From a virus: a DNA stretch of 21,333 nucleotides. Below are positions 3,923 to 21,333 of the stretch, piece after piece; the stretch's first letter is position 1; every line of letters starts with the position of its first letter. The notes beneath the pieces are model-generated. The model was not told the origin of the DNA, made no database searches, and was given only the letters and a program-made list of their open reading frames with translations. The position numbers and the translations under genes were made by a program. The DNA is taken from the IMG/VR virus record IMGVR_UViG_3300045738_000930, positions 1 through 21,333 of that record; one strand, written 5' to 3'.

Positions 3923-5299
3923 TTATGTCCTTTTTAGTTTAGTATATTTTTCTCGCAACAATTGTTGTTGTTCTCTTACTCCTAGTGCTACGGGAGCAGT
4001 AGCAACGCCATTAGGAGCGGTGGGGATGCTGGCCTTCGGAAGAATGGCGATCTTAACAATGGATGTGTCCATAAAGATCGGATATATAATCCCATCGGGG
4101 CCGTTTCTGTTCTTGGCAATAAATATTTTACCTTGATTGTTTTGTTTGTCTTCGATAGTGCGAGAGATCGAAAAGATAAAATCAGAAACGAAACACTTGT
4201 TAAAGGCTTCGGAAATCTGCTCCATCGTAATGACTTCTGCATTGAGTCCTGACCGATTCGTTTGTGAAGCTGTCCAAATAGGACATTTAAATTCACTAGC
4301 GAGAGCACGCAGTTCCTCATAAATAGACTCAAGTTCATTTCTCTTCTCTTTGCGTATAATAACTGGCTTCAATAAGTCTGCATAATCTACAATGATAAGT
4401 CCTGGCTTAATGTCTCTTTTGGTTAGCCGGGATAAGTGTGCTCGTAAAGTATTAGTGGTGGCCGATTTAGTAGGATACTCTTTTATAATTAACGCACCAT
4501 CAAGATTTTTAATCTCTTCATAGATCTCTTCTTTAAAGCTGCGGATATCAGAGAGGGGGTAACCAGTGATACAACTGTCGTAACGTATACCAATAACAGT
4601 ATCTTGAAGTTCCAAAGTATAATGAACCACCGTTTTTCCTTCTTTGATCGCGTGGGCTCCCAAGTGTACGAGCGCCATAGATTTTCCAGCGCCCGTGGGA
4701 GCAATAACTACCCCGAGTTCACTTTTACCAAGTCCCCCGCCTATTATACTATCAATCTCCTTCCAGCCGGTAGCAACAGGGGCGCGGTGTTTGAGTTTGA
4801 ATCGCGCCTCAAAATCGACCAGATAATCATAACCAAAGTTATTCTCGGAGCCCAACTTAAGCGCATCATTAATAACGGTGGAGATCTCATCGAAGGAGCA
4901 GTTCTGGAGCAGACCTACTGACTTCATCATGGCTTCTTTAAGGTTCTGTTTACGACAAAAATCCAAAGATGTCTCTTTGATATATTCTACATCCGTTAGC
5001 TCGCGCGTATGAATACGTGCAAAATAATCACGCACCTGATTTTGTGTCACTTCATCTTCTTGATCCATTTGAGTACGGAGGATCGTAATCATGGTATCTA
5101 AGGAGGGATGCGTACTATAACGTGTCCGATAGTCAAGAATTTTATTTACAAAAACTCGCAAATATTCGAGTTCTAAAAATTGGATATCTAATACTTCTGT
5201 AATCTGATCGGCAAATGGCCGGTCTTCAAAAATAAGTTGTACTAATCCCTCTTGGAAGGACTTCCCGTACCTTCCAAAATTCACGTTTTCAGTGAGCAT
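3923..5299 (-). CDS. Replicative DNA helicase, DnaB/T4 gp41 type
   Basis: A 458-residue hexameric helicase that should unwind DNA ahead of the replication fork. Residues 1-150 are a helical N-terminal region without clear motifs. The RecA-like core starts near residue 175. It has Walker A PTGAGKS (201-207), a catalytic glutamate in YTLE (Glu230), Walker B LIIVDYADLL (301-310), the DnaB motif ASQTNRSGLN (344-353), and a C-terminal AKNRNGPDG (396-403) carrying the likely arginine finger. The N-terminus resembles gp41-type phage helicases rather than T7-type primase-helicases; no zinc or TOPRIM primase domain is fused, and no separate primase is seen in the window. The ATG is preceded by AGAGGG with a six-base gap and by two promoter candidates (5326-5386), so this gene probably starts the transcript that continues through the reductase, co-chaperonin and amidase. 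Confidence 0.92.
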   Translation of the reverse strand: MLTENVNFGRYGKSFQEGLVQLIFEDRPFADQITEVLDIQFLELEYLRVFVNKILDYRTRYSTHPSLDTMITILRTQMDQEDEVTQNQVRDYFARIHTRELTDVEYIKETSLDFCRKQNLKEAMMKSVGLLQNCSFDEISTVINDALKLGSENNFGYDYLVDFEARFKLKHRAPVATGWKEIDSIIGGGLGKSELGVVIAPTGAGKSMALVHLGAHAIKEGKTVVHYTLELQDTVIGIRYDSCITGYPLSDIRSFKEEIYEEIKNLDGALIIKEYPTKSATTNTLRAHLSRLTKRDIKPGLIIVDYADLLKPVIIRKEKRNELESIYEELRALASEFKCPIWTASQTNRSGLNAEVITMEQISEAFNKCFVSDFIFSISRTIEDKQNNQGKIFIAKNRNGPDGIIYPIFMDTSIVKIAILPKASIPTAPNGVATAPVALGVREQQQLLREKYTKLKRT

Positions 5300-5325
5300 C
5301 TATTCCCTCTCGATAGTGTATTATA

Positions 5326-5353
5326 TATATAACAGATTGGCAGCTAAAGTCAA
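5326..5353 (-). promoter_or_regulatory. Promoter of the helicase operon (proximal)
   Basis: TTGACT (5353-5348) is followed after 16 bases by TATATA (5331-5326) preceded by TGT, i.e. an extended -10. It lies in the 76-bp gap between nuclease and helicase and ends about 26 bp before the helicase ATG. An 18-base spacer to the next TATATA is also possible. Confidence 0.65.
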
Positions 5354-5357
5354 ATCA

Positions 5358-5386
5358 ATTTTAAAATATTTCTTTTTAATTGTCAA
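5358..5386 (-). promoter_or_regulatory. Promoter of the helicase operon (distal)
   Basis: TTGACA (5386-5381) with a 17-base spacer and TAAAAT (5363-5358). The -35 box is formed by the last codons of the nuclease gene (Leu-Asp-Asn-stop). Together with the proximal box it gives a tandem promoter arrangement. Confidence 0.55.
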
Positions 5387-6341
5387 GACACTCTCTACTA
5401 ATTTTGTTTAAGTTTTCTTTGAGAACTTCCCAATTTAATTCACCAAATCCATCATCACGCATCATGCCAATAATTTCAGTTTTATTAAATTCACATTCAA
5501 AGTTTGCAATCGATTCTTTGACGTGCGTTTTTGCCTGAACAGACATTTGCGGAGCATACAGTTGCATCATCTTGTAGTTGTGTTCAATGAGGTTTCTGTT
5601 CTCGGCGATGTTGGTAAAAAATTTAAGTTTGCTTTTTGTATTCTCACAAAATTCTATTACTTCATCAATAGTATAAGATTTGCTATCGCTCAAAAAGTTT
5701 AATCTTTTTCCAACCGTTGCAAACCCGGCTCCTTTGATCCCGGGAAGGTTGTCGGAGGTGTCTCCTACGATGGACCGTGCAAGGGCCATGTTGGTAGGGT
5801 GTACTCCGGTTTGTTCAATAATTCTTTCTTTATTTAAAATTTCGTTTTTGGTGGGGCGCCACAAGATCGTTTCATCATCACAGACTTGCATGAAGTCTCG
5901 GTCATTAGAAATAATAATCTTCTGCCAGCCCTTATAGCGAGGAAGCTGGGTGATGAATGCAATAACATCATCGGCCTCAATCTCGGGCAACATGAATTGA
6001 ATGATGGGCATGTTGTTAAAGTATTCAATGACACGACTTTGTTGCCACATTTTATTGTGCAACTCTTCATCATCAGTAAGATTGTGGAACGCCCGATTCA
6101 AACGGATAGGCTTGCGCCCTTCTTTATAGTTCTTATCCATGCTCTTTCGCTTGCGTGATCCATTAGGTCCGTCCCATACCACGATAATCTGATCTGGTTT
6201 TGTCTCTCGGACATGACGCTGGAGGATCTTAATGAACCCCTTGATACCGCCGATGGGATCCCCGTGGGTGGAGATGCTTGGATCTACAATATACGCCCTA
6301 AGATATGCATTCAATGCATCAAATATTAGTACTCTCTTCAT
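5376..6341 (-). CDS. FEN/T4 RNase H-type 5'-3' exonuclease
   Basis: A 321-residue metal-dependent 5' nuclease that should remove RNA primers and flaps from lagging-strand fragments. The acidic metal-binding set of the FEN/PIN superfamily is present: Asp8 (IFDALNAY), Asp57 (VVWDGP), Glu120/Glu122 with Asp124/Asp125 (PEIEADDVI), Asp147/Asp149 (SNDRDFMQ), and Asp194/Asp197 (VGDTSDN). A helix-hairpin-helix DNA-binding loop (NLPGIKGAGFATVGKRL) follows at about 198-214. The length is close to T4 RNase H and to stand-alone bacterial 5' nuclease domains. The start overlaps the deaminase stop as ATGA, with AGGTGG about ten bases upstream, indicating translational coupling. A 5' nuclease activity supplied as a separate protein fits the small polymerase at 12064-13248, which has no nuclease domain. 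Confidence 0.92.
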   Translation of the reverse strand: MKRVLIFDALNAYLRAYIVDPSISTHGDPIGGIKGFIKILQRHVRETKPDQIIVVWDGPNGSRKRKSMDKNYKEGRKPIRLNRAFHNLTDDEELHNKMWQQSRVIEYFNNMPIIQFMLPEIEADDVIAFITQLPRYKGWQKIIISNDRDFMQVCDDETILWRPTKNEILNKERIIEQTGVHPTNMALARSIVGDTSDNLPGIKGAGFATVGKRLNFLSDSKSYTIDEVIEFCENTKSKLKFFTNIAENRNLIEHNYKMMQLYAPQMSVQAKTHVKESIANFECEFNKTEIIGMMRDDGFGELNWEVLKENLNKISRECLDN

Positions 6342-6739
6342 AATTTATAACCACCTACTTCCTTATTATCTATGGTATATATAACGCGCTTAATCCCGAC
6401 GTGTCGTAGGGTCGATTCACACATTTGACACGGCTTCGACATTCTAAACTCACCTGCTTTTCCTATTCTCGCAACATAAAGCGTTGCGCCGTCAGTTATT
6501 GACCGGGCTAGCCCTAGGATGGCACCTATCTCTGCATGAACTGTGGCATGTCCGGGTTGTTCATGGTCGTTTCTAAATCTTGCGCCGAAAGAACAAAAGC
6601 TATCCTTGTTTGGAGACGTGCTGATGATAGAGCCACCCTTTACGAGGACGGCGCCATGGCGATAATCTGAAAATTCTGATTGTCCTGCTATGTTTTTTGC
6701 CAATGACATAAAACGTGCGACCTTGCCATTATAAGACAC
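6338..6739 (-). CDS. Cytidine/deoxycytidylate deaminase family protein
   Basis: A 133-residue zinc-dependent deaminase. The signature is His68-Ala-Glu70 followed by Pro103-Cys104-x2-Cys107: histidine and the two cysteines bind zinc, and the glutamate shuttles the proton. The core strand KRVIYTIDNKEVGGY follows. The likely job is nucleotide metabolism (for example dCMP to dUMP to feed dTMP synthesis), which fits the nearby ribonucleotide reductase, but substrate cannot be told from these motifs. An RNA or tRNA deaminase is less likely in this context. The start is GTG (6737-6739), supported by AGGAGG five bases upstream and by a promoter directly ahead. It overlaps the nuclease gene by 4 bp (ATGA). 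Confidence 0.82.
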   Translation of the reverse strand: MSYNGKVARFMSLAKNIAGQSEFSDYRHGAVLVKGGSIISTSPNKDSFCSFGARFRNDHEQPGHATVHAEIGAILGLARSITDGATLYVARIGKAGEFRMSKPCQMCESTLRHVGIKRVIYTIDNKEVGGYKL

Positions 6740-6759
6740 AAGCCCCTCCTGTTATATAT

Positions 6760-6788
6760 AATATAACACAAGGAGCTTCAAATGTCAA
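6760..6788 (-). promoter_or_regulatory. Promoter of the deaminase-nuclease unit
   Basis: Perfect TTGACA (6788-6783), 17-base spacer, TATATT (6765-6760), with TGT just before the -10. It occupies the 57-bp gap between the secreted-protein stop and the deaminase GTG, and the -35 begins eight bases after the upstream stop codon. Confidence 0.75.
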
Positions 6789-6796
6789 GCAGTTTT

Positions 6797-7126
6797 TTAA
6801 CGATATCTGCGAGGCGGCGGGTGCGGTCGACCACGGCCGCGGACTTGTCGGACATAGGTATGCGGGTGGCGACTAATCATATGTCGAGGCACACTACGCA
6901 ACTCCCAATATCCATGCGACCACACTCCGCGAGGGGTTTGGTGACCACTTACCCAAACCCAAGCCTGTACCTTTACAGGTTGAGGTTGATGTGCGCGTGG
7001 CGCAGGGCGGGGTGGTGGCGCGCGGTGAACCGCATGAGGCGCCGGGGCGGGGGTCGGATGAGGATGGGCATGCACTACACAAGCACTACTCAACAACCCA
7101 ATAATTGCAATTATAATCTTATTCAT
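6797..7126 (-). CDS. Small exported His/Pro-rich protein with a YXWXXG-like motif
   Basis: I start this gene at the ATG 7124-7126 because AGGAG (7134-7138) lies seven bases upstream and the next residues form a signal peptide; the open frame continues 20 codons further upstream but into recA with no reason to use it. The 109-residue product has a Lys-containing start, a hydrophobic core IIIAIIGLL, and a probable cleavage after VVHA (residue 20). A weak lipobox around Cys16 is an alternative. Residues 21-50 are His/Pro/Ala-rich. Residues 56-74 carry WVWVSGH-x6-W-x4-W, resembling the YXWXXG(X)W repeats of secreted bacterial proteins. The C-terminus is Arg/Pro-rich. It should act in the periplasm or envelope. 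Function is unknown; exclusion of other phages, envelope modification or lysis are only guesses. It overlaps the recA end by 8 bp, so is probably coupled to it, and is visibly GC-richer than its neighbours. Confidence 0.72.
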   Translation of the reverse strand: MNKIIIAIIGLLSSACVVHAHPHPTPAPAPHAVHRAPPPRPAPRAHQPQPVKVQAWVWVSGHQTPRGVWSHGYWELRSVPRHMISRHPHTYVRQVRGRGRPHPPPRRYR

Positions 7127-8264
7127 TTGAAATCTCCTGTTCTTCTTCATCATAAAAATCTGCGGCGTCTCCATCGCGTCGATCAAATCGTTGAATCACT
7201 TCTTCATCCATCAGACGTATGACTCGCTCTTTAAATTCATTATCTGATTTAATAATCTCGGTCCACTTTGACGGCTGGAACTTCTTAGAGTATCCATCGG
7301 GAGTTTCTAGAGTATACCATGCACCTTTTGCAGTAAGGTATTCAGAACTCTTAATGGCATCAAACCAGCTTTCTTCATCGCGGATGCCTACCTCATCGCT
7401 TCCCCACATAATACGGAAAGCACAATTTCTTCCTTGGGTACCAAAGCGAGACTTTTCCAGTCGAACTTTAATTTCCGATCCAATACGGAAACCTTTATCA
7501 TCAGTTACAAAGGCACTCTTGGCTTTGCGGCCGGTGAGCCAGATTCGTAATGAATAAGAGTAGTGCATGGCTTTACCTCCCGGTGTCATGTAAGGTGTAG
7601 TCATAGCTGTGATGTGAGCCATGGGTCCGCTGGTGATGTTGGTCTTAAGTTGATTAAGAACCAAGAAGGTTGCTTGCTTGTCTGCAATAGGAAGAGTCAG
7701 CTTTGACATCCCCTTCGCAAGAATACGCGCCTTCATTGCCATCGAGGATTGAGGATTAAAGTCGCCTTCAACATCCGAAACGGCCGGCGTAAATGCGAGA
7801 GAGTCCCAGATCAATAGCAACTTTTCATCGGTTGCTCCTAGAAGTTCTTCAATTGTCTCAAGAACGAACTCGACAGACGCTGCCTGAATATACATTAAGC
7901 GCCCTAGGTCGCATCCTGCTGCCTCCAAAAAAGCAGGGTCGATGGCAGACTCGGAATCAAAATATACAACGAGCTTACCCTGTTTCTGGGCGTTAGCTGC
8001 GATCTGTGCAGCCATATAAGATTTGCCCGTGGACGTGAGTCCTGCAATCTCTGTGGTTTTGCCAACAGGGATGCCGCCAATATGTCCTTTACATATAATG
8101 CTGTCAAGCCAGCGCGATCCTGTGGGGATCCATTCCTTGACTTCGGTGGGGTTCTCCCCCGTTAGATCATGGGCGACATTGCGGCCGGCTTTCTTGTTTA
8201 CTAAGGTCATGAGTTCCCGCATGGATACACGACCCGCTTTTGGTTGTTTTGCCTTTCTCGGCAT
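7119..8264 (-). CDS. RecA/UvsX-like recombinase
   Basis: A 381-residue ATP-dependent strand-exchange protein for recombination, repair and recombination-primed replication. The core begins near residue 45. It shows Walker A GLTSTGKS (75-82), a catalytic Glu in YFDSES (about 105), Walker B LLLIWDSLA (149-157), the region QLKTN that ends the second DNA-binding loop in this family, and TPGGKAMHYSYSLRIWL, equivalent to RecA GG-ALKFYAS-RLD. The C-terminus is strongly acidic (EEEQEISNE), as in RecA where it tunes DNA binding. The overall sequence looks closer to phage RecA/UvsX than to bacterial RecA. The ATG has AAGGAG seven bases upstream and a strong promoter at 8287-8315. The product would work with the gp32-like protein from the same region. 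Confidence 0.93.
   Translation of the reverse strand: MPRKAKQPKAGRVSMRELMTLVNKKAGRNVAHDLTGENPTEVKEWIPTGSRWLDSIICKGHIGGIPVGKTTEIAGLTSTGKSYMAAQIAANAQKQGKLVVYFDSESAIDPAFLEAAGCDLGRLMYIQAASVEFVLETIEELLGATDEKLLLIWDSLAFTPAVSDVEGDFNPQSSMAMKARILAKGMSKLTLPIADKQATFLVLNQLKTNITSGPMAHITAMTTPYMTPGGKAMHYSYSLRIWLTGRKAKSAFVTDDKGFRIGSEIKVRLEKSRFGTQGRNCAFRIMWGSDEVGIRDEESWFDAIKSSEYLTAKGAWYTLETPDGYSKKFQPSKWTEIIKSDNEFKERVIRLMDEEVIQRFDRRDGDAADFYDEEEQEISNE
7134..7138 (-). promoter_or_regulatory. Ribosome binding site fixing the exported-protein start
   Basis: AGGAG inside the last codons of recA, seven bases before the ATG at 7126; it decides the short start and implies translation coupled to recA. Confidence 0.6.
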
Positions 8265-8286
8265 AGTGCCTCTCCTTATATATTAT

Positions 8287-8315
8287 ATTATAACACACTT
8301 ACATGGTTATGGCAA
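8287..8315 (-). promoter_or_regulatory. Promoter of recA-like gene
   Basis: TTGCCA (8315-8310), 17-base spacer, perfect TATAAT (8292-8287) with TGT before it. The -35 is part of the last two sense codons of the Dam gene. The -10 ends 22 bases before the recA ATG, leaving a short leader that contains the AAGGAG site. Confidence 0.75.
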
Positions 8316-9164
8316 GCATGTAATAATAATTTCTGATGAATTCCCCATCTTTTTCTTTTCTGTTTGTGTTTTCGATTTAACGTTCTTCATTCCCATGGCC
8401 CACTTGGCTTCTACGATATTATAATCTTTATACAATTCTCGAATCTCTGCGCAATCGTTATAAGATAATATCCAGTTGGATCGTTGAGAGATTATATCAT
8501 ATAGACCATGATGATCAAAACCAAAATGAGTGTTTCCCTTATCTCCATAAAGCTTATCTTTGTCGGCGCCTAGCATGTAGGGTGGATCTAGATATAGTAA
8601 TGCGTCGGGGTGCGCTGGGATTGATTGCTTAAAATCTTTTTGTTCAACTGTTAGGTTGGGTTCATTAAAGTTATGTAGGCGTTCAATGGAGGTATCAGTA
8701 AACCGTGCATATGAGGCGCGCTCCGACCATCCTCCGCTAAATGTTGCTCCCGAAAAGCTGCTACGATTAATAGCATAAAACTTGGCTGCGTTTGCATAAT
8801 TATAATTGCCGGGGTAGCGAATAGCTTGTCGGAGTTCTTCTCGGATGCGCTCGAAATCTTGACGCAGTAAGCCCCTGCCCCACACTAATTCTCCCTTGTG
8901 TTCATATTGATTGGGCCCCGTCCGCAGCTTGTCAGATTCATTTGCTATGCGCAATGGTTCCGCTAGGAGGGCGCGCCAAAACCAAACCAGCGGTCTGAAT
9001 AAATCATATCCATACACTCGAATGCCGCGCTCGGCTAGCGCCAATTCAAACGAACCACCTCCAAGAAAGGGGGAGCAAAGCTCCCCACAGTCTTCGGGGA
9101 CGAATTCCATTAACGTTTTGACCGCCCGACTTTTACCGCCGGGGTATCGCAACGGGGTCTTCAT
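8307..9164 (-). CDS. DNA N6-adenine methyltransferase, Dam (D12) class
   Basis: A 285-residue SAM-dependent methylase that should methylate adenine in DNA. The N-terminus carries the D12/alpha-class pattern: LRYPGGKSR (5-13), then the SAM-binding motif SPFLGGGSFE (31-40), and the catalytic DPPY (193-196), followed by FDHHGLYDII and SYND motifs typical of Dam/DpnM. A target such as GATC is common in the class but cannot be read off here; GATC is frequent in the window and not visibly avoided. The ATG directly abuts the stop of the ParB-like gene (TAA ATG) with no good Shine-Dalgarno, so translation is likely coupled. There is no cognate restriction enzyme nearby, which points to an orphan methylase that protects phage DNA or marks it. 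Confidence 0.92.
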   Translation of the reverse strand: MKTPLRYPGGKSRAVKTLMEFVPEDCGELCSPFLGGGSFELALAERGIRVYGYDLFRPLVWFWRALLAEPLRIANESDKLRTGPNQYEHKGELVWGRGLLRQDFERIREELRQAIRYPGNYNYANAAKFYAINRSSFSGATFSGGWSERASYARFTDTSIERLHNFNEPNLTVEQKDFKQSIPAHPDALLYLDPPYMLGADKDKLYGDKGNTHFGFDHHGLYDIISQRSNWILSYNDCAEIRELYKDYNIVEAKWAMGMKNVKSKTQTEKKKMGNSSEIIITCLP

Positions 9165-10301
9165 TTAAACGTTCGATTCCACAACTTCTAGTTTAGGACA
9201 TCGGAACACATCGTCTTGGGTGAGAAGGTCCCCAACGTTAACTAACTTGACCTGTCCCAGCATGAAAACATAGTCAAACTGTTGACCGGTGATATGTTGA
9301 GCGTCCATAAAGGACACTTTATTAAAAACCTTCTGCTGAGACTCTAGAATTTTCGTCGGTTTGGTCGCTGTCGTGTGAACAATTAAAATAGAGGGCCGGG
9401 TGTCGGTGCCTTCTCCCTTTCGAACCTGCTCGGTGCCGGCTGACTTTTCAATGTTTCCTTGATCGCAACGAACACTATAGATCTTATAGTTTTTGTGAGC
9501 CAATCCATGGTCACTTTTCCATCCATCTCGAATGTTCCGGATCTTACTAAGTTCCAGTTGACGACGAATAGTCTGATGACGATCACTTTGGACTCTCCAC
9601 GACTGGATACCGTTCTGGTTAGCTTCGATGTCGGCATATGCCTCTGAAATCCAATCCTTAACAGTGGCTGGTTTACGATTGTTTTGAACCATCTCGTATA
9701 CATCGTCTTGCAGATCTGCTCGGAATTCCTCTGTCTCTGGTTCTGGCTCTCTACTAATTTGTTCTTTAATATAGAGCATGGTGTCGGCCTTGCTTGCAGA
9801 ATCACAAGGCAAGTGGTCATTAAGTAAGTTCTGGAAGAACTTCTTCTTGCGCCGAATGAGTTTCACCAGCGTCCGATCTGTGATAAAAATTGTGGGGACA
9901 TCAATCGAAGAAGTATTCGGATTGCCCCTTTCTGCTTCGCCAGCCAATACGGTGCGCGTACATCCATCAATTGCGTCACCCTCGTAGGGGGACTCGTCAA
10001 AATTCTTAAGCACAATAACATCGTTCTTAATGCCCACACTCAAAATAGATTGATATAGCTGGGGGTATTTTTCTGATCCTACCTCTTGGATACGTACCTG
10101 ATCTAAACGATATCTCGCCGTATCTGCTAGCTTCTCATGCGAAGCAAGATCTGGGTGGTAAAAATCCGAAATGGGATTTGTTTCTTCCGAAGCTTTTCCG
10201 TGAAAACGGTTCTGGGTATCGGTGATAATCTCGCGACTTTGAATAGCACATGCTAGTTCAATCAATGTTGCGCGATCTTTCTTCTGTTGTTTGGTGCTCA
10301 T
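9165..10301 (-). CDS. ParB-like domain protein, possible DNA-binding partner of the methylase
   Basis: The 378-residue protein contains, at about residues 66-142, a ParB/sulfiredoxin-like segment. It reads QLYQSILSVGIKNDVIVL, then AIDGCTRTVLAGEAERG, then VPTIFIT, matching the order strand/helix, G-x-x-x-P/D-x-x-V, (I/V)DG-x-x-R-x-x-A, and IPV-type strand seen in ParB N-terminal domains. The rest is charged and mostly helical; residues about 215-260 (ATVKDWISEAY then RRQLELSKIRNIRD) could hold a helix-turn-helix. Proteins of this superfamily bind DNA and CTP or act as nucleases; which applies here is not known. It is transcribed just ahead of dam and is adjacent to it. AAGGAA lies five bases before the ATG. 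No good promoter was found in the 100-bp gap before it, although the ssb terminator is there. Domain call is by eye and moderately certain. Confidence 0.6.
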   Translation of the reverse strand: MSTKQQKKDRATLIELACAIQSREIITDTQNRFHGKASEETNPISDFYHPDLASHEKLADTARYRLDQVRIQEVGSEKYPQLYQSILSVGIKNDVIVLKNFDESPYEGDAIDGCTRTVLAGEAERGNPNTSSIDVPTIFITDRTLVKLIRRKKKFFQNLLNDHLPCDSASKADTMLYIKEQISREPEPETEEFRADLQDDVYEMVQNNRKPATVKDWISEAYADIEANQNGIQSWRVQSDRHQTIRRQLELSKIRNIRDGWKSDHGLAHKNYKIYSVRCDQGNIEKSAGTEQVRKGEGTDTRPSILIVHTTATKPTKILESQQKVFNKVSFMDAQHITGQQFDYVFMLGQVKLVNVGDLLTQDDVFRCPKLEVVESNV

Positions 10302-11197: not shown

Positions 11198-11226
11198 AGT
11201 ATAACACACTCAACTTTATGAGTCAA
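11198..11226 (-). promoter_or_regulatory. Promoter of ssb
   Basis: TTGACT (11226-11221), 17-base spacer, TATACT (11203-11198), TGT just before the -10. The -35 is made by the last codons (Leu-Asp-Ser-stop) of the tubulin-like gene. Confidence 0.75.
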
Positions 11227-12067
11227 GTGTTTTTTGTTCTTGTACTACGTTTGTGTGGGCAACGCAGAACCCAAAATCTTCATGTTCGGTTTCATAAATG
11301 GCATAAGATAACTTTCTAAATGCATTAGTCGGTCTGTCTTTGAGCATATCCACCAATTTCTTGTGCAAGCCGCCTTCGCTTGCTAATCTTTCTTCGTTTA
11401 TACATATATAATAACACAGTTCGCGGGGGCTGTCAAGGTTAAAAAGCCATTTTTCTTCAAGATTTTCCATATTGAGTATTGCAATGCTTCTAATACGGTT
11501 TAGTGCGGCCGGCTGTGCGGTTTGTCCAATCTCTGGTTCCGAGAATTCAAAGTAGTTTAAATGATGAACGGTCGAAAAAATAGATTGGTTTAGTAAAGTG
11601 TAGTAAGTTTTGATCGGAAGCTCTCCAAGCGCCTGTTCCAAATTCAAATTAGAAATTAAAGTAATTGTTTTGAAAACTGCTGATCGTGCATATTCCTGCA
11701 GCACCCCAAAGGTAATCGCTTCTAGAATTTTGCGAACACCCGTTAACAATTCAGTGTCAGGCTGAATATAGAACAGTTCAATGTCTTTATCTTTAATCTG
11801 CTCCAAGATTCCTAATACATAATTTGAACTCATCGAAGAGCCCATCACAAATACTTGTACTCGGTCTCGCATGTCGGCAAAGAACTCTGTTAAGTCTGGG
11901 ATGTTAGTTTCATATTGATCAGGTGTGGAGAAGGTTTCTAAATGAAAAGACCGGTCAGTATTTTGCACAACCTTATTATTTAAGCAGTATACTTCATAAT
12001 TACTGATGCTCGTAAAATTCTCTGCGATGGCTGATGCCGCATTTCCAATTCCTACTACTGAAATCAT
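11216..12067 (-). CDS. Divergent FtsZ/tubulin-fold-like protein
   Basis: I do not recognise this 283-residue protein by name, but its layout parallels FtsZ from end to end. MISVVGIGNAASAIAENF fits the first strand and T1 loop. VYCLNNK fits the FtsZ AVNTD strand. RVQVFVMGSSMSSNYVLGILEQIK fits the strand and T4 loop where FtsZ has GGGTGTG. IELFYIQPDTELLTGVRK fits the TVAVVTKPFNFEGKK segment, and TITLISNLNLE fits SLITIPNDKL. The final CYYICINEERL and KLSYAIYETEHEDFGFCVAH fit the C-terminal domain strands. The tubulin glycine signature is degraded to GSSMSSN and no acidic T7 loop is evident, so GTP hydrolysis is doubtful. A plain Rossmann-like fold is the alternative. The start overlaps the polymerase stop as ATGA. 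Two promoters lie inside its end. Confidence 0.6.
   Translation of the reverse strand: MISVVGIGNAASAIAENFTSISNYEVYCLNNKVVQNTDRSFHLETFSTPDQYETNIPDLTEFFADMRDRVQVFVMGSSMSSNYVLGILEQIKDKDIELFYIQPDTELLTGVRKILEAITFGVLQEYARSAVFKTITLISNLNLEQALGELPIKTYYTLLNQSIFSTVHHLNYFEFSEPEIGQTAQPAALNRIRSIAILNMENLEEKWLFNLDSPRELCYYICINEERLASEGGLHKKLVDMLKDRPTNAFRKLSYAIYETEHEDFGFCVAHTNVVQEQKTLDS
11408..11436 (-). promoter_or_regulatory. Internal promoter within the tubulin-like gene
   Basis: Perfect TTGACA (11436-11431), 17-base spacer, TATTAT (11413-11408), with TGT before the -10. It is inside coding sequence about 240 bp before the ssb ATG and would add a second start for ssb. Confidence 0.55.
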
Positions 12068-13248
12068 AACTTTAACTCTTTAAGATCGTAATAATTCTCG
12101 CCACATGCAAGGTTAACTAAGAATGTATCTAATTTGTTGTTGGCAAATATTTCTTTAATCTCGGGCACTAACGTGCGATCTTCATCGGCCAAGTCTACTA
12201 CCACTTCATCATGGACAATATGAGAAACAAAAGATTTCTTTCCTGCCAAGAATTTATCTAGTACTATTGCTCGCTCTATTACCAAGTCGGACGTAGTGCT
12301 TTGGATTAAATAGTTAAGTGCCTTCCTTGCATCCACTCGTATTTTACGGTTGAATATAGTATTAATATAACCTCCTTCGTACCATTTGTCAAGAACTTTT
12401 TCACGTCGGTAAATATTAAATTCATCATTAGCAGCCTCGGGATTATACAACCACGCAAAGAATTTTATCTTAGCGTCTTCACGATCTATCTCACCCTGAA
12501 TTAAGTTTTTAATATGCCATTGATGCACGTCTTCAGTAGGTTGTTGTTCCCCTGCCAGTGCAATGAAGGTACGTACCTCTGCGGCATTGTAATCTAAGGA
12601 TAAGAACCACTCATTGTGAGGCTTTAGAAGCTTCCGAAAATCTTTTTGGACCGTCAGTATGGGGAAGCTTTCTGCGTGGGTTGTAAGACGTCCTGTGACC
12701 GTTCCAAAGGGGTTGTAGTCTATATATGCTGGTCCCCGTAGGAGGTTCTTCACCCGGGCGGTGTTCCGCGATGACATGTGGAGATTCTTGCATCCTTGGT
12801 TGTTCAGGTTTAACTTCTGATAGCGGAGTTTGTATAAAAGTTGTTGCGCTTCGTTCAAGTGTTCATAACACGCTGGCTTCTCATATGTTTCAAATACATG
12901 TTCCGTAATTTTATTCTTAATCTCGCAAAATTCTTTGAGAAAATTTTCGGGGACCAAATCAAAGATGCAATGGTCGTGCATGTTAATTTTGGCCAATTGA
13001 AACGACTTCATGTAAGCACGCAAGTGTTTTTGAGTCTTCAACAATACTCCTTGAAGTTCAGGAGGACAGACTTCATTGAGGCTTCGTCCTTCGCATCGAA
13101 GCCATCCATATTCTACAGGCGTATCTTTAAGAGAGCCAGTGTATTTCCACGTCCTATTAAGATCGGTGGGAAAGTCATCGTAATAAAGCTTTCCCTCCGT
13201 ATATATGCCGATACATTCTGACTTATCATCTATAGCTTGAAAATACAA
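12064..13248 (-). CDS. Small family A DNA polymerase lacking an exonuclease domain
   Basis: The frame is open from a TTG at 13302, but I prefer the TTG at 13246-13248: it comes one base after the upstream stop and has GAGG five bases ahead. This gives 394 residues (numbers below count from the longer 412-residue form). The polymerase palm is clear: TVTGRLT (201-207), motif A with Asp237 in LDYNAAEVR, motif B region RxxxK (Arg274-Lys278) in a shortened O-helix ending YN rather than YG, and motif C His364-Asp365-Glu366 in VHDEVVVD. The motif A to motif C distance (about 128 residues) is much shorter than in E. coli Pol I (about 177), so the fingers are reduced. No 3'-5' exonuclease motifs are seen in the N-terminal 190 residues. 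It overlaps the tubulin-like gene by 4 bp. Confidence 0.88.
   Translation of the reverse strand: MYFQAIDDKSECIGIYTEGKLYYDDFPTDLNRTWKYTGSLKDTPVEYGWLRCEGRSLNEVCPPELQGVLLKTQKHLRAYMKSFQLAKINMHDHCIFDLVPENFLKEFCEIKNKITEHVFETYEKPACYEHLNEAQQLLYKLRYQKLNLNNQGCKNLHMSSRNTARVKNLLRGPAYIDYNPFGTVTGRLTTHAESFPILTVQKDFRKLLKPHNEWFLSLDYNAAEVRTFIALAGEQQPTEDVHQWHIKNLIQGEIDREDAKIKFFAWLYNPEAANDEFNIYRREKVLDKWYEGGYINTIFNRKIRVDARKALNYLIQSTTSDLVIERAIVLDKFLAGKKSFVSHIVHDEVVVDLADEDRTLVPEIKEIFANNKLDTFLVNLACGENYYDLKELKL
12364..12392 (-). promoter_or_regulatory. Possible internal promoter within the polymerase gene
   Basis: Perfect TTGACA (12392-12387), 17-base spacer, TATATT (12369-12364), preceded by GGT rather than TGT. 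It lies about 300 bp ahead of the tubulin-like gene and could express that gene independently of the polymerase. Confidence 0.4.
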
Positions 13249-13249
13249 T

Positions 13250-14581
13250 TTAACCTCGGGTATTGGAAGTACCGTCTTGGACCCGTAATAATTCGCGTTC
13301 AATATCGCGAGCCGCTTCTTCTGTTTCTCGCTGATCCAAGCCTCTTGCCTGTGCCCTAGCTTGTTCTGCTCTTATAGTATAACCCGTAGAGCCACGATAG
13401 TCAAATGGTTTATTCAAAATTGTTTCAAAATAAAGCAAAGCTTTATATCTATCGCCCCCATTAAATACTTCTATACACTCTCGCCCAATCTTGCGTTGTT
13501 CTGCGTCGGTAAAGAATGTTTCTTCTTCGGCGAATCTCATCTCAAAATATTTACTCATAAAATAAGCAGCCGAATATCTCTCATTTAAGCTCTCCAACGT
13601 ATAGGTAACGCTCTCCTTCATCACAGAACAGATAGAATTATCAGGGCCTACCGCGGCCATACTTGTTTTTGGCTTTCTCACCTTGTTGTAGAGATTTAAA
13701 AGCTGTTGTCCAAAAAGCCTGAACACATATACATGCGGGGCACTAGCAAACTTAGTAGATAATACACCCAGGGCGCCCGACGATCCATATCTCAACGCTG
13801 CTTGCTTCATGGTTAGCGAATTTAAGTCTGCCATAATACGCCATGGCATATTGCCGTCTACTACGAAACCATAATTATTACATTGGTTTGTCCATAGTCC
13901 CCAATTCAGACTATTAAAGAAGTCCGTTACTTTGGCCTCGTCATCATTGGTTCCCACATCCGCTATTTCTAACACGAGCCCACTGTTGGTGCAGGAATAC
14001 AATTTACTCTTAACATATCCTGGTAACGTGAATGGAAACTCTAAAGCGATATTCTTGGTGAGGTCCATCAAAACGGCCATAAAATCATCAAAGTTCAAAA
14101 TGGAAATTTGATTACCATATATATGATCACGTATAACACTAGCTAAATTTTGAGAATAAGTTTTATAGTGAGAGCGGGGGGATTCATAAGCTCGAAAGAT
14201 CTTTAATTCAGCGAGGTGTTTATCTTTAGTATCGAGTCTTCCGGTCATACCCAGCTTTTGAAACTGGCGCGCCATATCTTCAAATTGATCTACCACAAAA
14301 TCCATAGCTTGTATACTTATTTTCGGATCCGCTGTGCGTCCGTTAGAAAAGCTTTTCATCGTCTGGGATCGCGGGATCACCGGGATCGAGAAAGCATTAA
14401 CCTTTCCAAACAATACCAATTCACCTCGTTGATAATCGAGCAGGTTAGTGGTCAGCGGTGGTACATTGGAGGATGGGGCATACTTTTGTAAATCGTAGAT
14501 GGCATCTTTGTAATTGCGTCTCTTATAATAAAGCGCCTTTAGACTCTTGCCTCGATTTTTACCTACATAATTTTTGCCCAT
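13250..14581 (-). CDS. Unrecognised 443-residue phage protein, possibly virion-associated
   Basis: A complete gene with a good start (GGAG nine bases before ATG) that begins 17 bp after the hub-like gene and ends one base before the preferred polymerase start. I do not recognise the family. The N-terminus is basic (MGKNYVGKNRGKSLKALYYKRRNYKD), the middle is mixed alpha/beta with aromatic-rich stretches (LNWGLWTNQCNNYGFVVDGNMPWRIM near 225-250), and the last 45 residues are a charged, probably helical or coiled-coil segment rich in Arg, Glu and Ala. No signal peptide, membrane segment or nucleotide-binding motif is visible. Position next to the baseplate genes and shared direction suggest a structural or assembly protein, for example a baseplate-associated component, but a replication role is not excluded. 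Confidence 0.75.
   Translation of the reverse strand: MGKNYVGKNRGKSLKALYYKRRNYKDAIYDLQKYAPSSNVPPLTTNLLDYQRGELVLFGKVNAFSIPVIPRSQTMKSFSNGRTADPKISIQAMDFVVDQFEDMARQFQKLGMTGRLDTKDKHLAELKIFRAYESPRSHYKTYSQNLASVIRDHIYGNQISILNFDDFMAVLMDLTKNIALEFPFTLPGYVKSKLYSCTNSGLVLEIADVGTNDDEAKVTDFFNSLNWGLWTNQCNNYGFVVDGNMPWRIMADLNSLTMKQAALRYGSSGALGVLSTKFASAPHVYVFRLFGQQLLNLYNKVRKPKTSMAAVGPDNSICSVMKESVTYTLESLNERYSAAYFMSKYFEMRFAEEETFFTDAEQRKIGRECIEVFNGGDRYKALLYFETILNKPFDYRGSTGYTIRAEQARAQARGLDQRETEEAARDIERELLRVQDGTSNTRG
13254..13257 (-). promoter_or_regulatory. Ribosome binding site fixing the polymerase start
   Basis: GAGG lying in the last codons and stop of the 443-residue gene, five bases ahead of a TTG codon at 13248; used to choose this start over the upstream TTG at 13302, which has no good site. 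Confidence 0.5.
13376..13404 (-). promoter_or_regulatory. Promoter for the DNA polymerase inside the upstream gene
   Basis: TTGACT (13404-13399), 17-base spacer, TATACT (13381-13376). It is inside the 3' end of the 443-residue gene and about 130 bp before the polymerase start, well placed to separate polymerase expression from the virion transcript. Confidence 0.5.
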
Positions 14582-14598: not shown

Positions 14599-17500
14599 TT
14601 AAGGAACAGTCGTTGCGCTTTCCTGTCGTACTGCAAGATTAGTGTCGCAATTTCCTTGGGTACCACCGGGTGTTGCCACCTGTGTAGAGTCTTGCAGAAG
14701 TGGTGAGTCTGTACCGGTGCAATCACTGATGCCATTAACCCACTTAGCATGTAATCGCGTTTCTGCTTTTCCGGGGGCAAACGAATGTTCGGATTTTATA
14801 ATCATCATATATCCTCCGATGCCGTACTGAGTCAGGTTAAGAGGATCCTGGCAAGTCAAATTGGTACTTGGAGCAACTCCGCGGGGATCGACAAAGATAT
14901 AGGTACCAGGAAAGGTTTTTACATTTGCATACATCTCAATATCTGCATCATATAAGACCCGTAATTGTTGGAGTCCTTTATAGCCATCTTGTTCAAAGCG
15001 TACTTCTGCTAGCCCAGGTGAATCGGTTTTATTAAACTTAATATTTTTAATTAATCCTCGATTACGTCCTGCTAAGTAATGGTAAATGCCCGCTTGTTCG
15101 TCTGTTTCTTTGTCTCCGTTCATGCGCTCCATTGGTGCCACGCGGCCAGCAAAATAAATAAAATAATTCATTTCAGTAGAAACATGACCAGCAGCAATGG
15201 GAGTATCGGGCACTCCTGAAATATTAAAAACAGGACTAGGAAGATCAGCTAGGTTTGCTCGTGACTTCCATTTGTCGTCCCATTTCATGACGGCCGGGGG
15301 TCCGATGTGGACGGGGGGTACATACCCTTCGGTTAAGCTAGCTGTTATTTCATCAATTCCAGGGGTATCGGCACGGGGATAGGAAGTTATCACAGTTTGA
15401 TTCATACGAATTTTACCGCCCGGCTTAATATCCCAATTAAAACAAGAGCCATCATTAAGGAAGTCAGTAATTAATTTATTAAACAAGTCATTCAGAAAGC
15501 GTGTAAGTGTATAAATAGTCTCGGCAGTATCACTTAATTTTTCCGTAATCCATTCCAATAAATATTTGAGAGAAATGGGAACATCGCCAAAAGTACAATG
15601 AAGGGGTTCCCCGGCGGCCTTTCCTTGGTTGACTATCTCTAACGGTCCCAATACAATTCGCAACTTCTGGTAAGCTTTGTGTAATCTTTTCATTTTTTGC
15701 TTTTCTAGTGCAACGTCGCACTCATTAAATCCGGTCTCCTTGTAGATGGCCAGATTAATTTCGTCTTCCATATCCTCGGGCAACTCTTTTAATTCAGCCT
15801 CAATATTCGCCATAATACAATCTACCAAATCGCTTACATATACAAAAGGAAGATTTTCATTCTTTGGATCGGTTGCTCTCAAACCCGCTTTAAAAAGATG
15901 TGTCTCCTCGGCGTTTGGATCACCGCTGAATTGATAATCTGCGATGGCTTCTCGCATTTGACCATGAATCGTGTCTATTGCGGAGGCGCCTTGCTGCGGC
16001 TCCAGGTCGCCCACATTGGCAGACCAATCATAATACGGACCTTCCGAATTAAACAAACCAATATTTTCTATGGGCAAATCTAGATAGTAAATCTTGTTCT
16101 GCTTGGCGAGACTGCTTACCAAGGCTGTGAGAATCAGCGGCTTTTCTTCGTTAGCTTCCTCCGCAAGATTTTTCTTGATGTTGCCTATTTCAGTGGCATC
16201 GCACTTTGAACTCAGATATTTAAGCTTAAGATTTCTCACTAATTGTTTAGCAGTGGGGTTCGTGGCGCCGGCACTGGCAAAAATATTAAATGCGGGCTGA
16301 TCATAAAAGTCTTCTACATAGGCGAGATATTTAATGACCATTGTTGTTCGTCCCATCTCATCAAATTCAAAATGATGAATCGTAGGAGTCAAATTCAATG
16401 TAATGGTGGAATTCCAAATTCCTTTATATAATAATTCTTTACCAGTCTCAGCCGTAGTTGCTAAGTTCGACCTTTCCCATGGTCCGGTTCCATTCGGAGT
16501 GGCCCAGCCTACTACTGCTTTCAATCTAAACGTAAGCTTATCTAGATTTTGATTTTGTTGTGCAAGGATACCTCCCGCACCTCCGGAGTTCGCGGCCCCC
16601 GTCGTCCCGGGCTGGCAATTAGCGGGGAGCGCTCCAGGCACATTGTTGCCTCGGGCAGGAGGGGGATTGCGGGTCTTAAGTGCAAGATCGGCAAAGCTAA
16701 TTAGATTTCCTTGCTGGTTTCGGCGCGGTAACAATAATTCATCCATCGAGCTTGCGAATACTTTAAGAGTAGCACTGATGCTTTTCTTAACTGCGAAGGG
16801 GTTGCTTCCCTCATAAGCAAAATCAAAACTTTTGATGCCCACGCCGGCCCCTCGGCGCCGGCGGTCTTGTAACATGGTAATTAAACCAGATGCACTCGAT
16901 TCAAATATAAACTCATCTTCACCTTCTACTCCATCATCATCATAGCTAATCTTAAAGAGCCGAATCATAGGTTGTAAGTGCGAAACAACTTCGGGATCAG
17001 CATTAAAAAAGAGTCTTCCCCCTTCACTCTGGGTTAGCTTATTAAGAAATCCATAGGGATCTCCATCTAATAAGAGGGTACTGTTGGGAGAACCATTAAT
17101 ATAAGGGAGAGCCTTCTTGGGCTCTCCGCGGCCAGGCGGCGGACCAACATAAGGTGCAGCCTGGGCTACGCCCCCATCATAATCTCGCTTTTTCTTAATG
17201 GCAGAAAGTTGTCGCATATAACTTAACAAAAAGCATTGTTCTTTAAAGATGTTACGTTGAACTGCGGCCCCAATCGCTTCAGACGCGTCCTGAGACCCTA
17301 TCGCGTGCATAAGATCGTTCATTAGTCCCGTGTTACTAATGCTATCAAAACCCGGTATAATCCCGATGGCGCTAGCCCAAAATCCGGATGCATCTTTGAA
17401 GGCTTCTTTAATATTGGCCATGGCTGCATCCAAAATAGGAAGATAAAGCATCACCGCATCTCGGATACACTTCCAAGCGGATGCAAAATTCTTAATCCCT

Positions 17501-18783
17501 CGTATCAATACCTCAGCAGCAGGTTTCATGGCGGCAAGAATCGGCTTAAGCTCTTGGGACAACCCAGCATCTATTGCAACGCCCTCAATTTGTGCCTTGA
17601 AAACTAACCAAATTTGTTCAAAGGTGCCATGATGTTGAATGCTGTGGGGTGCTTTTATCCAGCCGCCGGTGCCCGCTTTGCCTGCTTCTGCGGCATCAAG
17701 ATTTCCTATTCCAGGCTCATATTCATAGCCTTGTACATTTCCTGTAAATCCTAGGGATAATAATTTCGCGTCGGATAGCAGCCCGAGATAATCATTTTGC
17801 CGATTGTCTGAATTGGTGGCATCTTCTAATGCCTCATCGATTACGCGCTGATCAACGGTACCTAAGTTGAACTCACTCTCCTTAATGTTCGCGTCCGACA
17901 TGGAATATTTATTAGAAGCAAATGACCATTTTACTGCTTGATACCATTGGCTCGTTTGGCTTTGTAAACCGGAAACAGTCAACGGTAGTCCGCTGGCCGC
18001 GGCATTTTGTTGAGCATAGGCAAAGATATAAGGAAATTTGCCGGTGACTATATTCATAAAATCGTTCAGAAAGGTATTAGAACCCCCTGTAGCAGATGGA
18101 TCAACAAATGCATCTCTATTCTCGTCCGTTCCTACATAGAAGCTTTTGACTTTAAACCTATTGCTCATCGTCTTTCTCCAATCAATACTATTGCCGCCAG
18201 AGCCGTTGTCGGTAAAGACATAATGATGAAAGCGCATCTTGTCGCCGATTACCCCCGACTTAAGATATTCCGAAGACTGAACAACCCCTGAGCTAGGCTT
18301 TGTGGTGGTCGCAGCCCTGAGATCGTCGACGGTGAGCCCATATTTTAGAGAATAAGCCTTATTATCCTCCCAATTCAGTTTCTCGTCCTGGAGGGGGAGT
18401 CCAAAATTGGCAGCAATGGTGTGCATGTTGCGGGCTATATTTAACAGCGCAGTCTTCTGGTCCCGGGAATTCTGGTGTCCTCCCCATAAGGTGTCCGGGT
18501 GTTGACTCATTCGATAAGTAAAATTTGCATCCGAATCTTGTAGCTTTTCACTATTAGGGATGATAGACAGATCCAATAGTTTTCTAAATCCTATGTCATA
18601 ACCAATCCATCCTTCCTGAAGTTGCGTTTCAGCAAAGCGTAAATTGGTTACACAAGTCTTAAGCGAATCATATAAGACAGCTATTCCTTCATTCTTGGAA
18701 CCTTGTGCATCTAAGATCACATCCTGCTGGTCGGTATCTGTAATCCCTTCCTCTATTAAATCTTCTCTGGTGATCTGCGCCAT
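14599..18783 (-). CDS. Large baseplate hub-like virion protein
   Basis: A 1394-residue protein, the largest in the window. The N-terminal 400 residues are mixed and polar; around 400-500 there is a helical, Ala-rich stretch (KPAAEVLIRGIKNFASAWK, then IKEAFKDASGFWASAIGIIPGF). The middle has beta-rich segments. The C-terminal 220 residues contain a run typical of phage hub proteins: NIKFNKTDSPGLAEVRFEQ, then YIFVDPRG, and GGYMMIIKSEHSFAPGKAETRLHAKW, comparable to the late-control/gp27-type hub barrel. No lysozyme or peptidase motif was recognised. It probably forms the central baseplate hub or spike base, possibly as a fusion of several baseplate parts. The ATG overlaps the preceding stop by one base (TAATG) and has GAGGG seven bases upstream. 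Certain as a gene, inferred in role. Confidence 0.75.
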   Translation of the reverse strand: MAQITREDLIEEGITDTDQQDVILDAQGSKNEGIAVLYDSLKTCVTNLRFAETQLQEGWIGYDIGFRKLLDLSIIPNSEKLQDSDANFTYRMSQHPDTLWGGHQNSRDQKTALLNIARNMHTIAANFGLPLQDEKLNWEDNKAYSLKYGLTVDDLRAATTTKPSSGVVQSSEYLKSGVIGDKMRFHHYVFTDNGSGGNSIDWRKTMSNRFKVKSFYVGTDENRDAFVDPSATGGSNTFLNDFMNIVTGKFPYIFAYAQQNAAASGLPLTVSGLQSQTSQWYQAVKWSFASNKYSMSDANIKESEFNLGTVDQRVIDEALEDATNSDNRQNDYLGLLSDAKLLSLGFTGNVQGYEYEPGIGNLDAAEAGKAGTGGWIKAPHSIQHHGTFEQIWLVFKAQIEGVAIDAGLSQELKPILAAMKPAAEVLIRGIKNFASAWKCIRDAVMLYLPILDAAMANIKEAFKDASGFWASAIGIIPGFDSISNTGLMNDLMHAIGSQDASEAIGAAVQRNIFKEQCFLLSYMRQLSAIKKKRDYDGGVAQAAPYVGPPPGRGEPKKALPYINGSPNSTLLLDGDPYGFLNKLTQSEGGRLFFNADPEVVSHLQPMIRLFKISYDDDGVEGEDEFIFESSASGLITMLQDRRRRGAGVGIKSFDFAYEGSNPFAVKKSISATLKVFASSMDELLLPRRNQQGNLISFADLALKTRNPPPARGNNVPGALPANCQPGTTGAANSGGAGGILAQQNQNLDKLTFRLKAVVGWATPNGTGPWERSNLATTAETGKELLYKGIWNSTITLNLTPTIHHFEFDEMGRTTMVIKYLAYVEDFYDQPAFNIFASAGATNPTAKQLVRNLKLKYLSSKCDATEIGNIKKNLAEEANEEKPLILTALVSSLAKQNKIYYLDLPIENIGLFNSEGPYYDWSANVGDLEPQQGASAIDTIHGQMREAIADYQFSGDPNAEETHLFKAGLRATDPKNENLPFVYVSDLVDCIMANIEAELKELPEDMEDEINLAIYKETGFNECDVALEKQKMKRLHKAYQKLRIVLGPLEIVNQGKAAGEPLHCTFGDVPISLKYLLEWITEKLSDTAETIYTLTRFLNDLFNKLITDFLNDGSCFNWDIKPGGKIRMNQTVITSYPRADTPGIDEITASLTEGYVPPVHIGPPAVMKWDDKWKSRANLADLPSPVFNISGVPDTPIAAGHVSTEMNYFIYFAGRVAPMERMNGDKETDEQAGIYHYLAGRNRGLIKNIKFNKTDSPGLAEVRFEQDGYKGLQQLRVLYDADIEMYANVKTFPGTYIFVDPRGVAPSTNLTCQDPLNLTQYGIGGYMMIIKSEHSFAPGKAETRLHAKWVNGISDCTGTDSPLLQDSTQVATPGGTQGNCDTNLAVRQESATTVP

Positions 18784-20378: not shown

Positions 20379-21333
20379 TTATGAAGCCTCGGCAAACTTG
20401 CCGTCCACTATATTAAGTACTTTCTCTTCCAAAAGCTTACCATCTAATTCAAGTTTTACTGTGATTTGTTGGTTGGTGCGAGGGGCTGCTGCAGCCGGTG
20501 CTGCTCCGCCACCACCACCTCCACCGCGCACTCCACCGGTCGCATTTCCATAGGCGGTTGCACCGCCTGCACGATTGATGGCATTAGCCGAAGCTTCTAC
20601 GCGTTCTAAGATTGTCCTAAATGTCATAGCTTTATAACTTGGAATATCATCCATTGCCTTGGCTACTTGTTTAATAGCCTTGGCAGTTTCTAATAGCTGT
20701 CCCGATTGAATGCTTGCTAATGATTCAGTGAAAAGAGCAATCGCTTCTAGATCTTTGGTGGCAATAAACTTTAATGCGAAGGCTACAGAAAGCAAGCCGA
20801 TGCCTAAAGCGAACATCCCTACGGCTGCGAGGGGCAAGAAAATAGCCGCTAGCGCGAGGGTGGCAATCATGCCCGTAAACGCCATTATCTTATCCACCTC
20901 AAGGGCTTCGAACATTAGCACCATACCCTTAGCCAGCAACAAGAAACCAAGTCCTGCTAGGGCCACGCCAACCCCCACCAAAGCTAGAGCCAATCCAACC
21001 CCAAGCAATGGGATAGCAGCGGCCGCGGCTGCCGGCGCGACCGCGCTTAAAGCAAAAGACATCAGCCAAAGTCCCGCAGCAACTAAGGGGATTGCTATAT
21101 AAAGCGGGGGAGAGTAAAGAGCAGCCAAGAGGACCATGGCCACTAGTCCGATTGCTGCGGCTAATAGGACCCATTGTATTGTAGTAGCACCACTAGCAAT
21201 GGCCAACGCCCCCTGTGCTGCAGCCAACCCCCACGTAAGAGGGATCATAATAATCGACCACGCCTTCTGTGCTACGGCGATGACGGCTGCTCTAGCGGCC
21301 GAGGCCGCCCACAAATTTTGAGCCGCAGTTAGT
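20379..21333 (-). CDS. C-terminal part of a tail tape-measure-like protein
   Basis: The frame is open to the right window edge with no stop, so the N-terminus lies outside; a TTG at 21314 is not a convincing start. About the first 200 visible residues are Ala/Gly/Leu-rich and hydrophobic, with several membrane-like helices (for example LLGVGLALALVGVGVALAGL and LAAIFLPLAAVGMFALGIGL). They are followed by helical segments, a glycine run (about residues 260-272) and an Ala/Pro linker, then a short C-terminal strand/helix part. Hydrophobic helices ahead of the tail-tube and baseplate genes are characteristic of tape-measure proteins, which set tail length and can enter the membrane during DNA ejection. 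A membrane protein of other function is a weaker alternative. Confidence 0.7.
   Translation of the reverse strand, partial: LTAAQNLWAASAARAAVIAVAQKAWSIIMIPLTWGLAAAQGALAIASGATTIQWVLLAAAIGLVAMVLLAALYSPPLYIAIPLVAAGLWLMSFALSAVAPAAAAAAIPLLGVGLALALVGVGVALAGLGFLLLAKGMVLMFEALEVDKIMAFTGMIATLALAAIFLPLAAVGMFALGIGLLSVAFALKFIATKDLEAIALFTESLASIQSGQLLETAKAIKQVAKAMDDIPSYKAMTFRTILERVEASANAINRAGGATAYGNATGGVRGGGGGGGAAPAAAAPRTNQQITVKLELDGKLLEEKVLNIVDGKFAEAS

Follow-up and report, generated by a model that had tools for sequence, protein, structure and literature searches.

What a small gene for a His/Pro/Trp-rich protein with an export signal is doing at the end of a phage recA gene, and whether it is a foreign acquisition or an established member of its genome, is the question raised by gene X of the viral record IMGVR_UViG_3300045738_000930. 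All 21,333 nucleotides of this record constitute the window analyzed here; L-numbers (e.g., L010) label loci in other viral contigs.

Gene X Overlaps recA and Is Under Purifying Selection

X occupies positions 6797..7126 of the minus strand and encodes 109 amino acids, as defined by translation, alignments and pairwise comparison; the initial annotation had placed it correctly. Directly upstream on the same strand lies the gene for a 381-aa recA/UvsX-like recombinase (7119..8264, minus; PF00154, E 7.3e-34; phrog_97, E 1.4e-61), and the ATG of X at 7126 overlaps the recA stop codon (7119-7121) by 8 nt. A Shine-Dalgarno sequence, AGGAG (7134..7138, minus), is read within the 3' end of recA at a spacing of 7 nt from this start. 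Together with the N-terminal hydropathy discussed below, the overlap and the Shine-Dalgarno sequence bear out the original description: a small His/Pro protein that carries an export signal and whose gene overlaps recA. X is a real gene, as demonstrated by these features of its start, by the 48 distinct proteins of its family and by purifying selection. A chance open reading frame is ruled out by the homologs and by the omega values, which are below 0.25 in 48 of the 49 pairs with finite dS, the pair L067/L138 being the sole exception. The reading frame antisense to X (6782..7222, plus) was unmatched in Pfam at E up to 1. Translation from an upstream in-frame TTG at 7186 was judged unlikely, because the Shine-Dalgarno sequence fits the ATG at 7126 and several relatives (e.g., L090-L092, L097, and L099) lack an upstream in-frame ATG, which is present in others, such as L089 and L116.

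The median omega of X across the 49 pairs is 0.10, compared with 0.043 for recA (65 pairs), and X is thus under purifying selection. Among 66 close pairs (recA dS <0.9), which are not independent of each other, dN of X exceeds that of recA in 65, and dS of X is either higher than that of recA or saturated in 64.

A Protein Family in a Slot Behind recA

Scans of IMG/VR, with hits confirmed by tblastn, identified 8 loci with X itself as the query, 30 with type A (the type found in the window), 21 with type B and 14 with type C; the loci from these four scans overlap in contigs and are not independent. The 48 distinct family proteins were assigned to types A (19), B (17), C (10), and D (2). In profile-profile comparisons, type A matches type C along a 24-column stretch of the Trp core (E 1.1e-7) and type C matches type B over 77 columns (E 1.4e-11); types A and B gave no direct match (E 0.081) and are joined only via type C. 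Homology of all types is likely, short of proof, given alignments that are shallow and biased in composition.

The association with recA is nearly invariable. The recA gene lies directly upstream of X in 49 of the 50 new loci from the type A and type B scans and in all 14 type C loci, that is, in 63 of 64 loci, and in the sole exception (L107), X starts 8 nt from the contig end. X also follows recA in L068, which is outside this count. Relative to the recA stop, X starts at -8 to +52 nt, or at 211-223 nt in L106, L108-L112, and L114. X looks like an established, uncharacterized accessory gene of one uncultured phage lineage, with its slot behind recA, and it defines a small, probably exported phage protein family that is undescribed in the libraries searched and belongs to a lineage without close isolates.

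Composition, Distribution, and Origin

The initial annotation regarded X as compositionally unlike its neighbors and, hence, as an acquired, moron-like gene. The GC content of X, 0.578 vs. 0.38-0.52 in the 17 other genes of the window, does set it apart, but its GC3 (0.45) equals that of recA, and a GC of 0.582 and a GC3 of 0.46 are predicted for the amino acids of X if they are encoded as in the 17 other genes. Among 5,000 random synonymous versions of X, 63% reach the observed GC or more, and 66% do so for GC3. The GC island is explained by the codons for Pro, Arg, Ala, and Gly, and therefore foreign DNA is not needed; such an island in a phage gene can arise from protein composition alone and does not imply foreign origin. 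The genes at 19119-20363 and 20379-21314 (GC 0.52 each) likewise stand above their neighbors for the same amino-acid reason, and the GC of the ssb gene, 0.511, is above its own codon-based expectation of 0.467.

The distribution of X was assessed in a recA-seeded set of 81 loci, 80 of which, including the window, were usable (L060 was dropped because its recA runs off). Sixteen loci have a recA at least 90% identical: the window itself, 12 testable relatives and three that are too short. All 12 testable relatives carry a type A gene, and L008, one of the three short loci, ends in an incomplete X. Type A genes have the same composition as the X of the window (GC 0.56-0.60). The initial annotation had itself set against acquisition a core gene of unchanged composition in the relatives, and this is what is observed within the close clade. 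Among the 64 loci with recA below 90% identity, two of them untestable, X is present in 15 of 62 (9 of type B, 4 of type C, 2 of type D) and absent from 47.

A recA tree was built from 83 distinct rows, retained from 150 recA sequences after dropping duplicates, short recA matches and sequences with too little downstream DNA; 19 of these rows are of type A and 12 of type C. The types are clustered on this tree, with 11 changes vs. 42.7 in shuffled data (L143, of type C, was counted as type A), and one branch of 25 rows is entirely devoid of X. Thus, the types of X track the recA clades, with exceptions: L128 is of type B beside type A rows, and L127 is of type B in a mostly X-less branch. These placements suggest that X, or recA and X together, moved between lineages.

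To look for X elsewhere in the contig, 27 chosen records (whole contigs, mostly fragments) were searched with a profile; the gene was recovered in the six carriers already known and in none of the 21 X-less records, including a contig of 195 kb. Inspection of hydropathy up to 1.5 kb behind recA in the 47 X-less loci for an exported stand-in yielded five small hydrophobic reading frames, none of them convincing. Genome contigs were scanned with exact short patterns, which miss diverged homologs: the type A alignment (one of two patterns) gave 26 pattern matches and RecA gave 45, within the limited reach of such patterns, and none was confirmed. All 1,562 phage records with a RecA match are below 60% identity, the best of the 20 listed being at 32.6%, and psbA was not found in nine records.

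Recent acquisition of X from a bacterium, as a moron, would be in line with the patchy presence in distant relatives and with the interlineage transfer suggested by L127 and L128. However, the scan of genome contigs with the type A alignment confirmed no relative within the reach of its exact patterns, and the foreign reading fails because the GC content stems from the amino acids, X is present in 12 of 12 testable close relatives and the gene follows recA in 63 of 64 loci. We therefore consider such an origin very improbable.

Protein Architecture and Export Signal

The X protein comprises four regions. The signal peptide region (residues 1-20; 7067..7126, minus) has the highest N-terminal hydropathy among the 18 genes of the window (best 11-residue mean of 2.72, the next being 1.67) and includes the single cysteine, Cys16 (7079-7081), as part of the lipobox-like LSSAC, with V-V-H-A-H next in sequence. 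It is succeeded by a His/Pro-rich linker of variable length in the alignment (residues 21-54; 6965..7066, minus) and by the Trp core (residues 55-77, AWVWVSGHQTPRGVWSHGYWELR; 6896..6964, minus), a predicted beta hairpin, as judged from its invariance, two AlphaFold strands (54-63 and 69-75; block pLDDT 76) and the profile match to type C. The motif A55-W-V-W-V59, G61-H62, H71-G72, W74 is invariant in all 18 aligned window-type sequences, so that the YXWXXG-like Trp motif noted originally is real. The cationic, Arg-rich C-terminal tail (residues 78-109; 6800..6895, minus), which ends in GRGRPHPPPRRYR, was observed in type A only. The computed pI of X is 12.0, and histidine is frequent in every subtype (mature means of 10.0-16.4).

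What looks like a signal peptide in X is recognized from hydropathy, lipobox and AxA patterns, and conservation. Each of the 19 distinct type A proteins contains exactly one cysteine, always in a site that is loosely lipobox-like (by a PS00013-like pattern), and three fit a strict lipobox; residue +2 is V, T, or S. Because the cysteine is kept through diverse h-regions (e.g., LSSAC, LTSAC, and GLTGC), lipidation is the better reading for type A, and these proteins probably are lipoproteins. Given that the strict lipobox is found in 3 of 19 and an AxA-type site in 13 of 19 (the upstream ATG was used for seven in this test), cleavage of type A by signal peptidase I is conceivable, and V-H-A-H behind Cys16 could be a signal peptidase I site. 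All 29 proteins of types B, C, and D lack cysteine and contain an AxA-type site; none has a basic residue at positions 2-6, and in type B, basic residues directly follow the cleavage site, which makes export of these types less certain. Thus, probably lipid-anchored and nonlipidated forms appear to share one recA-coupled genomic position.

The persistent coupling to recA and the Arg-rich tail are also in keeping with a nonexported protein, inner-membrane or cytoplasmic, for instance, a membrane-tethered nucleic acid binder working with RecA, and the charge pattern of types B and C could favor a C terminus on the inside. Nevertheless, type A combines a basic n-region with the conserved lipobox-like cysteine, AxA-type sites are present in 29 of 29 type B, C, and D proteins, and only one basic residue, an arginine, is found among the 15 residues after the VHA site of the window's X (histidines not counted). 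Retention inside the cell is thus improbable, and we proceed with export as the preferred reading.

The AlphaFold models of the window's X and of a type C protein are poor overall (mean pLDDT of 63.8 and 63.5, respectively), the Trp core alone reaching 75-90 by blocks. In the former, the signal is a helix and a third strand spans residues 91-97; in the latter, a run of strands covers residues 62-85 with block pLDDT of 75-90. Foldseek searches of BFVD with both models gave no match below E 0.001 (best, 0.57 and 0.82). The sole PDB match of the sequence profile, C5a anaphylatoxin (E 0.15), was taken as chance. No family member reached a Pfam or NCBIfam cutoff, the best weak matches being to the VPA0510 family (E 0.0062), PHROGs (E 0.062), and PF12779 (E 0.13). 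A single representative of each of types A, B, and C was unmatched by PADLOC as well as in tblastn searches of 50,697 GenBank phage records at E up to 1 with the low-complexity filter on. Searches of Pfam, PHROGs, NCBIfam, PDB profiles, and PADLOC detected no homology to exclusion proteins.

Transcription Context

Three sigma70-like sites on the minus strand match 11 of 12 consensus bases: one upstream of recA (8287..8315; TTGCCA-17-TATAAT, with TG before the second hexamer), one between X and the dCMP deaminase gene (6760..6788), and one before the helicase gene (5358-5386). Two of the three are embedded in a nearly identical TGTGTTATA context. These sites possibly represent a phage early promoter class. 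In the region 5200-9300, 15 promoter-like sites were found on both strands, vs. a shuffled mean of 7.8. A score of 11 of 12 is reached in four of the 54 regions upstream of recA, three of which, including the window, share the window's site, whereas none of 1,080 shuffled regions scores 11; a conserved sigma70 promoter before recA was rejected, the window's site occurring in 3 of 54 such regions. On its own strand, X has no promoter match immediately ahead of it. One terminator-like hairpin lies inside X, and the total for the region, four, compares with 3.9 expected. X is probably translated from the recA message, and the flanking promoter sites may make recA-X a unit of its own. The site upstream of the window's recA, which is not conserved, may point to the activity early in infection that the initial annotation supposed.

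In several loci (e.g., L068, L119, L132, and L146), a GC-rich hairpin with T's after it (GGCAGACCGG...AGTCTGCC-type) was seen by eye before recA, uncounted; it resembles an intrinsic terminator of the upstream gene and was not seen in the window, where the promoter-like site is found. Farther away in the window, the Pfam match to DNA polymerase A is strongest in the C-terminal portion of a 412-aa reading frame with a TTG start (12064-13302), which overlaps a frame of 443 aa (13250-14581); the polymerase may be split or truncated. The large reading frames at 9165-10301, 11216-12067, 13250-14581, and 14599-18783 gave no significant PHROGs match, and the 1,394-aa frame among the large ones had no match in GenBank phages.

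A Mosaic Junction at the recA End

Counted per 100 columns, the window and L010 share 93-100% identity for more than 4.4 kb, as far as the end of recA. Within X, the identity drops to 89, 79, and 70%, and the genes beyond X are unrelated (L010 4400-5329 against window 7130-6346): behind X, the window encodes dCMP deaminase and L010 has a reading frame without a Pfam match. For this pair, dS is 0.98 in X vs. 0.10 in recA, and the window's X is closer to that of L002 (dS 0.45) than to that of L010. Judged from these profiles, X is located at a mosaic junction, with its alleles swapped in place. In relatives, the genes observed behind X or directly behind recA are of the repair/nucleotide type, namely, dCMP deaminase, a Pyr_excise-type glycosylase behind X (L016), or UvdE behind recA (L027). 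Rapid divergence and exchange in place, against a background of purifying selection, would be in keeping with a protein that has a varying partner in the envelope.

Possible Functions of X

The initial annotation envisaged phage exclusion, metal binding, or alteration of the host envelope, all of which are possible. We tentatively favor an envelope-anchored protein for which superinfection exclusion is the likeliest role, although we would stop short of calling it probable. Type A X would be exported by the Sec pathway, cut before Cys16, and lipidated. Lipoproteins without Asp at +2 are sorted to the outer membrane in Gram-negative bacteria, and type A X, having no Asp at this position, would reach the outer membrane of a presumably Gram-negative host. 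There, the Trp-rich beta hairpin and the strongly cationic tail would be held by the flexible Pro/His linker close to the cell wall or to the inner side of the outer membrane. In types B and C, a domain of this kind would probably be freed into the periplasm by signal peptidase I. X would then alter an envelope component, such that further phages fail to adsorb or inject. This role is preferred because of the anatomy of a small phage lipoprotein, the variation and recombination under purifying selection, and the precedent of T5 Llp; against it, the neighbors of X are DNA-metabolism genes rather than a gene for a receptor-binding protein, and 47 of 62 testable distant relatives do without X and show no convincing exported stand-in.

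The abundance of histidine in all subtypes and the HxH and HH clusters in the linkers of types B and C would fit a metal binder of the envelope that captures periplasmic Zn, Ni, Cu, or Fe and detoxifies, buffers, or supplies the metal. Yet the linker is the most variable part, few histidines of the type A linker keep their position while the Trp core is invariant, Asp and Glu are scarce, no cysteine ligand is available except that of the type A lipobox, and no metal-protein family gave a convincing match, so that we regard this role as unlikely. A contribution to lysis or weakening of the outer membrane, in the manner of o-spanins or disruptins, could be expected of a cationic, Pro-rich, outer-membrane-tethered protein; X is small, Pro-rich, extremely basic, and probably a lipoprotein, and a few members weakly match five Rz-like spanin PHROGs (best E 0.1). 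These scores are at noise level, however, no gene for an i-spanin-like partner adjoins X in the window, and X resides in a replication cluster with the amidase gene about 5 kb off, leaving this explanation doubtful. As for exclusion itself, recA-X might even be a deliberate unit, in which RecA promotes exchange between phages and X, made from the same message, gates entry at the envelope, allowing the phage to regulate co-infection and recombination, with lipid-anchored and soluble versions of the Trp hairpin interchanging at the slot; this is a speculative extension to which we attach little credence.

Comparison with Known Systems

Among described families, the best weak NCBIfam match is to the VPA0510 family (NF052668), in 3 of 25 members of A3; in the best case, L051, it covers residues 5-52, the signal and the His-rich part, with 17.1 bits vs. 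a cutoff of 95. As the Trp core is not included, composition may explain this match. The BcpO lipoprotein (NF037971) weakly matches residues 4-69 of L073, from the N terminus to the Trp core, with 11.5 bits vs. a cutoff of 80 (E 0.26). The type C core, W-x-x-G-H-W...W-x-x-G-H-W with predicted beta strands (e.g., L146), resembles the WXXGXW repeat of PF12779, although the spacing of the two motifs looks shorter in type C. No member of the X family exceeded the PF12779 cutoff of 18 bits, the E value of 0.13 being the best and reached by 1 of 11 type C and D members, and no match was found in four whole records at E up to 10; the available text of PMC8078820 tabulates PF12779 without a template.

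Compared with phage morons, X has the GC and GC3 predicted by the codon use of the window, is present in all testable close relatives (12 of 12) and in 15 of 62 distant ones, and lacks a promoter match just ahead of its start, which overlaps recA; the one terminator-like hairpin lies inside X.

A precedent among known systems is T5 Llp, a receptor-blocking phage lipoprotein of small size with an intramolecular disulfide, as described in the available text of PMC9586334; according to the same text, Llp and Cor-like genes adjoin the gene for the receptor-binding protein or gpJ. X shares with these proteins its small size and phage origin and, in type A, what is probably the layout of a lipoprotein, perhaps one of the outer membrane. 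It differs in having a Pro/His linker and a Trp hairpin, with no sequence similarity detected. To our knowledge, the extreme basicity and the histidine content are not typical of Llp/Cor-class proteins. The lipobox is loosely matched in 19 of 19 and strictly in 3 of 19 type A proteins, and the other 29 proteins are free of cysteine; with the single cysteine of type A, an Llp-type intramolecular disulfide cannot form. Also, X is located behind recA in 63 of 64 loci rather than beside a receptor-binding protein or gpJ gene. Because both the disulfide pair and this location were looked for and not found, we do not class X as a member of the Llp/Cor group. If X does exclude phages, lipoprotein-type exclusion would extend to an uncultured lineage, and the position behind recA would serve as a marker for finding more such proteins.
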